From Gemmatimonadota bacterium (GTDB taxonomy: Bacteria > Gemmatimonadota > Gemmatimonadetes > Gemmatimonadales > GWC2-71-9): 64,000 bases of DNA. Positions 46,795 through 50,517 of this stretch are shown piece after piece. The notes below the pieces were generated by a model. It was not told the DNA's origin. It did not search any database and saw only the letters and a program-made list of their open reading frames with translations. Every line of letters begins with the position of its first letter. Within the stretch, counting starts at the first letter, position 1. Position numbers and translations under genes: made by a program. The stretch spans positions 62,001-126,000 of the forward strand of contig JAPULZ010000064.1 of NCBI GenBank assembly GCA_027294455.1. Reading direction: 5' to 3'.

Positions 46795-46878
46795 ATTCGC
46801 TTCGACTTAAGCGCCGACCGGAAAATATTCTTGATGAAACGGCCTGGACGCTACAAACACAAGTGTGGTGAGAAACGA

Positions 46879-47028
46879 TGCCTCGAGTCCGAGGCAGCGC
46901 CGACGACTCTTTCTTCCGGCGTCTTTTGGCACCCCACCGTTCTCATCTCCAAAAGGACAATCGAACCGACATCACAGGACTCTGTCTCCATAGCTCGAGT
47001 ATGGAGCGAGCTGCGGCGCCTAGCGCCG
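46879..47028 (+). ncRNA. Structured 5' leader of the histone-like gene
   Basis: Two perfect hairpins bound this stretch: TGCCTCG-AGTC-CGAGGCA (46879-46896) and CGGCGC-CTA-GCGCCG (47014-47028). Shorter pairings lie between them, and CCGTCC/GGGCGG follows just downstream. It matches no riboswitch family that I know. Confidence 0.35.
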
Positions 47029-47087
47029 TAGAGCAAGCGGTCCGTCCGAATGGGCGGATCGAACAACCGTTTCCCGGGAGGGATTTC

Positions 47088-47414
47088 ATGGCAGCCAGAC
47101 GCAGGAAGAAAGCGACCAAGCGCAAGACGACACGGCGCAAGGCCACCAAGCGCAAGACCACGAAGCGCAAGACCACGAAGCGGAAGGCCACCAAGCGCAA
47201 GGCTACGAAGCGCAAGGCCACGAAGCGGAAGGCCACGAAGCGCAAGGCCACGAAGCGGAAGGCCACCAAGCGCAAGGCCACGAAGCGGAAGGTCACGAAG
47301 CGGAAGGTCACGAAGCGGAGAAAGGCCACGAAACGCAAGGCGGCCAAGAAGGCACCTGCACGCCGCCGGCGTAGGAAGGCGGCCGCCGCGACGGCTCCGA
47401 AGCGGCGTCGCTAG
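47088..47414 (+). CDS. Histone H1-like, Lys/Arg/Ala-rich repeat protein
   Basis: A 108-aa extremely basic protein made almost wholly of KRKAT-type pentapeptides: 15 units of (A/T/V)TKRK, then an AAKKAPARRRRR tail. It is comparable to bacterial histone-H1-like proteins such as HC1/HC2, AlgP or BpH1, which bind and compact DNA. The true start is ATG 47088 with a strong GGGAGGGA ribosome site; the ORF-track extension upstream is leader sequence. No acidic or folded domain is present. Repeat number could vary by replication slippage. Confidence 0.85.
   Translation: MAARRRKKATKRKTTRRKATKRKTTKRKTTKRKATKRKATKRKATKRKATKRKATKRKATKRKATKRKVTKRKVTKRRKATKRKAAKKAPARRRRRKAAAATAPKRRR
47112..47339 (+). repeat. 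15-bp coding minisatellite (KRKAT repeats)
   Basis: About 15 tandem copies of a 15-base unit close to ACGAAGCGCAAGGCC, in frame, with wobble-position variation and one unit enlarged by a codon (KRRK). Confidence 0.9.
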
Positions 47415-48366: not shown

Positions 48367-49524
48367 CTAGTCAGCGCTGCGCAGCACCGCCCCCTTCAAA
48401 TATCCGGTCTCAGGGATCGTGAGCACGACCGGATGATCGCGGCATTGGCCGACGACGCGTTCGAGGACCAGCCGACGCCCGCTGTCGGAGGCGGCCGAGG
48501 TCAGCATCTCGAAGAAACGATCCCGGCCGACGTGGAACGAACACGATGCCGAGAACAGGATGCCACCGGGTGCGAGAATTCGCATGGCGCGGAGGTTGAT
48601 TTCTTTGTATCCGCGGAGGGCGCGATCGATGGCCGATCGTTGGCGGGCAAATGCCGGCGGGTCGAGCACGATCGTGTCGAACCGACGGCCTTCGCGCTCG
48701 TACTCGCGGAGCAGGTCGAAGACATTGGCTTCGACCCACTCGACATTGTCCAACGCGTTCAGCTCAGCGTTCTTTGCGGCGATCTCCAGCGCGGTGGCAC
48801 TGGAGTCCACGGCCACGACCGATTCGGTCACCTTGCCCATTTGGAGGGCAAAGAGCCCTTGATAGGTGAAGAGGTCCAACGCCTTGCCTCGGGCGATCTC
48901 GCCCATCATGATGCGGTTTTCCCGCTGGTCGAGAAACGTGCCCGTTTTTTGTCCGGTGTGCGGTGCCACCAGATACTGCACGGCGCCCTCGACCGCCTGC
49001 ACCAGTTCGGGGATCGGACCGCGGATCTCTTCGATGGTGAGCGGAAGGTCTTCGTGGCGTCGCACCGACGTGTCGTTTCTCAGGAGAATGAATTTGGGAG
49101 CGACGGCAGCCTCCAGCGCCGCCAGCACATCATCGCGTACCGCTTCCAACCCAGCCGATAACAGTTGCACCACGAGCACGTCTCCGTACCGATCGGCGGT
49201 CAGCGACGGCAAGCCGTCGCCTTCAGCGTGGACCACGCGAAAGCCCGTGGCGTTCAGATGCTCGGGGTCGCGGAGGGCGAGCGCTTCGGCGACCCGGTCC
49301 TTCCACCAGTCGGCGTCGACCGGCTCGTCCTGGGCGGTGAGAAAACGCAAGCTGATTTCGGACGGCGGGCTCCACAGTGCCTGTCCGAGGTAGTTCTCAT
49401 GCGAGTCTTCGACCCGCACGACTCCGGCAGGGGCGTGCGCGTGTTCGACGTCCGAGCGATAGATCCAGGGGTGCCCGCGCCGCCAGCGCCTCGCCCCCCT
49501 GGGAGAAATGATCACGGTGTCCAT
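48367..49524 (-). CDS. RlmI-like 23S rRNA (cytosine-5) methyltransferase
   Basis: A 385-aa class I methyltransferase with an N-terminal PUA domain (RRGHPWIYRSDVEHA). The SAM motif is LDLFTYQGLFALQMG, the catalytic region LDPPAFARQRS, and LFSASCSFHVGRDRF near the end, as in RlmI/YccW (m5C1962 of 23S rRNA). The ATG at 49524 shares its A with the TGA of the broken aroH (TGATG), so it was probably translationally coupled to it. The ORF-track extension to 49734 is aroH sequence. Confidence 0.9.
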   Translation of the reverse strand: MDTVIISPRGARRWRRGHPWIYRSDVEHAHAPAGVVRVEDSHENYLGQALWSPPSEISLRFLTAQDEPVDADWWKDRVAEALALRDPEHLNATGFRVVHAEGDGLPSLTADRYGDVLVVQLLSAGLEAVRDDVLAALEAAVAPKFILLRNDTSVRRHEDLPLTIEEIRGPIPELVQAVEGAVQYLVAPHTGQKTGTFLDQRENRIMMGEIARGKALDLFTYQGLFALQMGKVTESVVAVDSSATALEIAAKNAELNALDNVEWVEANVFDLLREYEREGRRFDTIVLDPPAFARQRSAIDRALRGYKEINLRAMRILAPGGILFSASCSFHVGRDRFFEMLTSAASDSGRRLVLERVVGQCRDHPVVLTIPETGYLKGAVLRSAD

Positions 49525-49873
49525 CAGAGATCCAGCCGTATTGTTTGAGCCCACCCTGATACACGAGCTTGATATCAGATGGGGACGTGTCCGTGTTGAG
49601 ATGCACGAGAACCTGTAACAGCGCTTGGGTCCACCCGGGATGTCCGTCTCGACCGCTCCCAAGAGCGGCGCATGGTGCCATCCCACGCCGCGGGCCGCCC
49701 GTTCGGGGAAGGCGCTCCCGAGGTCCTGTGCCATCGTGAACGTGATGCTAGCAATATCGTCAACATCGACGCCGTTGGTAAACTATGCTTTCCAGGAGGT
49801 CCCTGATAGCATTCGGGATGAGCTCAGCCTCATCCTGCGCGACCAGGGTGGCGCCGCCGCGGACTCTCCGCAC
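49524..49873 (-). pseudogene. aroH: aroH chorismate mutase, disrupted by three frameshifts
   Basis: No intact ORF exists, but minus-strand fragments in successive frames align end to end with monofunctional AroH. They are VRRVRGGATLVAQDEAELIP (frame A, GTG 49873), NGVDVDDIASITFTMAQDLG and AFPERAARGVGWHHAPLLGA (frame B), WTQALLQVLVHLNTDTSPSD through LVYQ (frame C), and AQTIRLDL-stop (frame D). Total length (about 116 codons) fits the family. The catalytic Arg of the IRV motif (Arg90 in B. subtilis) reads Gln here, supporting real decay over sequencing error. Its start is 17 bases from the divergent thiE copy. Confidence 0.8.
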
Positions 49874-49890
49874 TGGTATGGCATTCTCGC

Positions 49891-50517
49891 GTGCCTCCTG
49901 ATTACCGCCTGATCGTCATCACGGCGCCCGATGTGCCGCCGCGACAGCTGGTCGAAGCGTGCCGGGCCGCGGCCAGCGGTGGCGCCACGGCCGTCCAGGT
50001 GCGCGCAAAGGGCGCTTCGGCGTCACAGTTGCTGCGCATCACCGACGAGGTGATTGGCGCCATCCACATCCCCGTCTACGTCAATGACCGGGTCGACGTC
50101 GCAAGGGCTTCCGGGGCCCACGGAGTGCATCTTGGGGCCGAGGATCTGCCGCTCGAGCGAGCCCACGCCGCGCTTTCGGCGTCCTTGGCGCTAGGGCTGT
50201 CGGTGGGCTCGGAAGCAGAGGCGGAGGCTGCACGCCGAGCTGGCGCCGATTACTGGAGTCTCGGCCCCTTCTATGGTACCCAAACGAAGTCGGATGTGGG
50301 AGCGCCACTGGGCCAGGCCGGCTTTCGGCGTCTCCGGGCCCTGGCGCCGTCGGGCATGCCCGTGATCGCCATCGGCGGCATCGATCACGGGAATCTGCCT
50401 GGAGTCCTGGAAGCAGGGGCCGCCGGCGTTGCCGTGATCGGTGCCGTTTTCGGGGCGGACGATGTGGAGCGGGCCACGCGTCGGATGCGGAAACTGCTGG
50501 ACGAGGCGCTGGACTAG
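49891..50517 (+). CDS. Thiamine-phosphate synthase / TenI family, second copy
   Basis: A 208-aa ThiE/TenI TIM barrel: QVRAKGASASQLL, IPVYVNDRVDVA, GVHLGAEDLP, YWSLGPFYGTQTKSD and VIAIGGIDHGN. The conserved QxR-K and ND motifs and the GPxxxTxTK-like segment look more like canonical ThiE than the 15.6-kb copy does, so this may be the true thiamine-phosphate synthase and the other a TenI-like partner of ThiG. GTG 49891 is the start. It converges on mltG with a four-base overlap. Confidence 0.85.
   Translation: MPPDYRLIVITAPDVPPRQLVEACRAAASGGATAVQVRAKGASASQLLRITDEVIGAIHIPVYVNDRVDVARASGAHGVHLGAEDLPLERAHAALSASLALGLSVGSEAEAEAARRAGADYWSLGPFYGTQTKSDVGAPLGQAGFRRLRALAPSGMPVIAIGGIDHGNLPGVLEAGAAGVAVIGAVFGADDVERATRRMRKLLDEALD

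Follow-up and report, generated by a model that had tools for sequence, protein, structure and literature searches.

We begin with the described systems that stand closest to the locus considered here. The monofunctional chorismate mutases of the AroH class, trimeric enzymes that convert chorismate to prephenate, form a family (Pfam CM_1, TIGR01796; PDB accession codes: 1COM, 1XHO, 1ODE), and for the enzyme a leading role in transition-state stabilisation has been assigned to Arg90 (B. subtilis numbering; PMC5458464). Loss of enzymes of the phenylalanine/tyrosine branch is also on record: tyrA loss has been reported in Buchnera and Haemophilus ducreyi (PMC1173090), and members of Palauibacterales, another Gemmatimonadota order, have been described as putative auxotrophs for tyrosine and phenylalanine (PMC10469786). 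A literature search on the aroH locus of the present genome found no report. In this genome aroH is broken, and we consider it very likely that the gene is a real pseudogene that is decaying because the prephenate branch has been lost, and not because a substitute chorismate mutase has taken its place.

The aroH relic occupies positions 49524..49879 of the minus strand of the window, that is, of the whole 64 kb stretch of DNA that was analysed. Its extent is taken from a frame-tolerant alignment of the minus strand, 49524-49879, to a profile built from 23 intact homologues of the same taxonomic order, in which four successive pieces cover the full length of intact AroH, from the first motif to the last residues. 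Piece 1 (IPVRRVRGGATLV...LLESIV, 49781..49879) has ATA (49877..49879) at the position of the ancestral start codon, which is ATG in the relatives, and an extra in-frame GGC codon (49856-49858) within the first motif. Piece 2 (TNGVDVDDIAS...PGGPKRC, 49618..49779) is the only one that scores alone against CM_1 (E 5e-12) when the pieces are searched separately; piece 3 (QVLVHLNTD...VYQG, 49553..49615) has first residues that vary with the placement of a missing base, and piece 4 (AQTIRLDL, 49524..49550) runs into a TGA. The frame is broken near 49780 (one base extra, or two short) and again near 49612-49617 and near 49551-49552, where a single base is short each time; these three breaks leave no uninterrupted frame of about 118-127 codons. 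In the genome search the locus scores 48 bits against CM_1 (cut-off 27). The preliminary description had read four minus-strand fragments as a full-length AroH with three frameshifts, closed by a TGA that shares a base with the next ATG, and the alignment agrees on each point: the last base of the TGA (49524-49526) is also the A that opens the ATG of rlmI-like. The span given there, 49524-49873, is right to within six bases: 49873 belongs to an in-frame GTG (49871-49873), and the ancestral start codon lies six bases further out.

On either side the relic is bordered by intact genes, as had been described: a gene for an RlmI-like 23S rRNA methyltransferase (48367..49524, minus strand, 385 aa), so named because its product scores under the NCBIfam equivalog cut-offs, and the divergent thiE (49891..50517, plus strand; TIGR00693 152 bits, cut-off 145). 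The suggested search for an intact aroH in relatives was rewarded in all three congeners (G001, G002, G003), where the gene is present in single copy. The order thiE, aroH, rlmI-like is the same in G001 and G002, which also keep the TGA/ATG overlap and so hold an intact orthologue at the same place, while in G003 thiE and aroH are adjacent and are followed by a different gene. Two other genomes (G045, G047) have two AroH matches each. Elsewhere in the window, at 46878-47414 of the plus strand, lies the gene of a histone H1-like, lysine/arginine-rich tandem-repeat protein (TKRKATKRKA...), and similar repeats occur in G003 in a stretch near its aroH (L014:2685-3215).

Has the relic lost its catalytic arginine, the counterpart of Arg90? 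The preliminary description had it replaced by Gln, and this depends on how the second break is read. The bases around it are CGC TGT TACAGGTT CTC GTG. With the missing base set before TA, the reading (x)TA CAG GTT gives (Ile/Val)-Gln-Val and the Arg becomes Gln; if it is set a few bases later, after AGG, the reading TAC AGG (x)TT gives Tyr-Arg-(Val) and the Arg is kept. The profile of 23 homologues prefers the Gln placement, and by a hand count on the alignment G002 and G003 favour the Gln placement and G001, with the Arg codon AGG, the Arg placement. The replacement is therefore possible as far as the bases tell, following from one placement and not from the other, and because of this ambiguity we set it aside as a proof of decay. 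The equivalents of Arg7, Glu78 and Tyr108, whose numbers were assigned by eye with the family motifs as a guide, are kept in pieces 1, 2 and 3.

A broken reading frame may also be a consensus or assembly error, with aroH intact in the cell. Each of the three frame breaks is compatible with a lost base, and two lie next to short runs of G; the acs gene of the same genome carries a single in-frame TAG that could be another base error. Against this stands the integrity of the surroundings. When the whole 64 kb window was segmented by codon usage, in-gene frame hops appeared in aroH only, in line with the earlier statement that the other genes here are intact; the other coding segments end at in-frame stops, and a few short or repeat-rich segments with a stop 79-124 bases off were judged to be overlaps or noise. 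The remaining codons of the relic have changed as well. At 27 columns invariant in the 23 intact homologues it has six changes (A to E, V to I, R to Q, L to Q, L to I, P to L), or five if the Arg is kept, whereas each of the 23 homologues, left out in turn, has 0 or 1. In a relative-rate comparison with G027 as the outgroup, the changes unique to each lineage are 27:8 for the relic versus G001 (P 0.001), 26:9 versus G002 (P 0.004) and 23:9 versus G003 (P 0.013), whereas ThiE (29:26), CMK (25:18) and AroA (43:31) are near even; AroH evolves fast in this genome and its neighbours do not. The invariant-site changes and the relative rates both point to relaxed selection on the codons that remain. 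Changes at codon positions 1+2 relative to those at position 3 give a ratio of 0.38 for the relic and of 0.30-0.43 among the intact congeners. This ratio is uninformative as a test of relaxed selection; since it is not raised, any such relaxation would be recent. Base-calling indels leave unexplained the five or six changed invariant residues, the accelerated rate of AroH and the absence of tyrA (see below), and because aroH is also the sole frame-hopping gene, sequencing error alone is an unlikely cause; that the cell holds an intact aroH seems to us quite improbable. True pseudogenisation, as first proposed, is well supported at the level of sequence by the intact congeners, the changed invariant sites and the lack of any other frame-hopping gene in the window.

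We turn to the enzymes that use prephenate. TyrA, the prephenate dehydrogenase, is present in all three congeners, and its gene sits between acs and aroA in each of them (loci L054, L055, L056). Neither a profile search nor tblastn with the TyrA of G001 found a TyrA in the present genome, and the best tblastn match, a weak one, is really a protein of the 6-phosphogluconate/3-hydroxyisobutyrate dehydrogenase type. Here acs (start L071:9216) and aroA (ATG L071:9322) are only 105 bp apart. Because this junction is interior to contig C131 and not at a contig end, and because the acs-side leader stretch common to G001 (GATGTCAAGGAAA...ACATTCCA) is kept, we conclude that tyrA has been cut out between the two genes. 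Prephenate dehydratase (PDT) is undetected in all four genomes of the genus, the present one included, and the partner enzymes of the branch are thus gone together with AroH, tyrA by deletion at the syntenic site. Both aroA (66% identical) and the chorismate synthase gene aroC (399 bits) are intact, with open reading frames. The in-frame TAG of acs (L071:8662-8664; contig C131, 18661-18663; minus strand) stands beside the tyrA deletion at a Glu codon of the congeners; both halves of the gene otherwise match acetyl-CoA synthetase, and the TAG is either a true nonsense codon or a base error.

It had been expected that the organism would need another chorismate mutase, such as an AroQ domain, and aroH might have decayed because such an enzyme took over. 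The suggested search for aroQ does not support this: by profile search the aroH locus is the sole CM_1 match in the genome, and no CM_2 domain (AroQ) was found in it or in the three congeners. The CM_2 search was positive in 13 of 14 control genomes, and CM_2 is present in 17 of 61 related genomes. The assembly (254 contigs) has a completeness of 94% and a contamination of 6%; some 6% of the genome may therefore be absent from it, and an AroQ or a PDT possibly lies in that part. Neither TyrA nor PDT was found to use the prephenate of such a mutase, and we give a takeover by a second enzyme very little weight. That the four pieces are still expressed as one useful protein by frameshifting is scarcely credible, for although the equivalents of the three catalytic-site residues and the stop-start overlap with rlmI are preserved, this reading needs three separate shifts within about 350 bases, found in no relative, in a gene with an altered start codon and changed invariant residues.

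Decay that follows the loss of the branch thus remains the preferred reading, and a sequence of events can be proposed for it. In the ancestor of the genus, prephenate would have been made by AroH and used for tyrosine via TyrA, a recognisable prephenate dehydratase being already absent. Once tyrA was deleted in the present lineage, no known enzyme would have remained to use prephenate; aroH would then have lost selection, acquiring the altered start codon, the frameshifts and the changes at conserved residues, and chorismate would still be made for other uses. The order of the losses, tyrA and then aroH, is our inference. With the gene for the following step of tyrosine synthesis deleted, the cell would tolerate a broken aroH.

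A second route to tyrosine could be provided by phenylalanine 4-monooxygenase, which makes it from phenylalanine. The present genome has this enzyme (C177; NF008877 307 bits, cut-off 247), as does G001, where the gene is cut by a contig end; a TAA reported within the G001 match is no lesion and is the gene's own stop codon beside the contig edge. Since the hydroxylase yields tyrosine from phenylalanine, TyrA and AroH would be dispensable if the cell takes up phenylalanine, as it may do. Tyrosine in this species could then come from imported phenylalanine by hydroxylation, or the enzyme could serve catabolism instead. A switch of tyrosine supply may be in progress in the genus, although we hold this with less than even confidence: the congeners would rely on AroH and TyrA without a recognised phenylalanine branch, and the present species would have dropped that route for imported phenylalanine and the monooxygenase, with aroH as its last trace.

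The joint presence or absence of these enzymes was tabulated in 44 genomes at least 90% complete, the present one included. A chorismate mutase and TyrA or PDT are both found in 33, the mutase only in three, a consumer only in three and neither in five; the association has a Fisher P of 0.002, uncorrected for kinship. The whole branch is lost, with chorismate synthase kept, in G004, G032 and G042 as well. A mutase and TyrA without a recognised prephenate dehydratase occur in 12 of the 44 (G001-G003, G013, G021, G027 and G052 among them), and such genomes belong either to phenylalanine auxotrophs or to organisms with an unrecognised dehydratase.

The best reading is that the case is ordinary in kind, a relic of a lost pathway branch and no pointer to a hidden substitute enzyme; where the downstream enzymes are gone too, a broken chorismate mutase does not have to imply such an enzyme. 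With tyrA deleted and a hydroxylase present, the decay of aroH is a clear, testable small case, and an isolated broken gene leads to a nutritional prediction for an uncultured Gemmatimonadetes genus: a need for phenylalanine, with tyrosine made by hydroxylation.

Compared with known systems, the relic belongs to the AroH-class family along its whole length and is 57-60% identical to the intact AroH of the congeners over 115 codons. Unlike the enzymes of this class, it has three frameshifts, an altered start codon, an extra codon and five or six changed invariant residues. As in the reductive branch losses reported for Buchnera and Haemophilus ducreyi and, putatively, for Palauibacterales, enzymes of the phenylalanine/tyrosine branch have been lost; in the present genome chorismate synthesis is kept. 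Unlike in those reported losses, the chorismate mutase can still be read as a relic here, and the genome has a phenylalanine hydroxylase.
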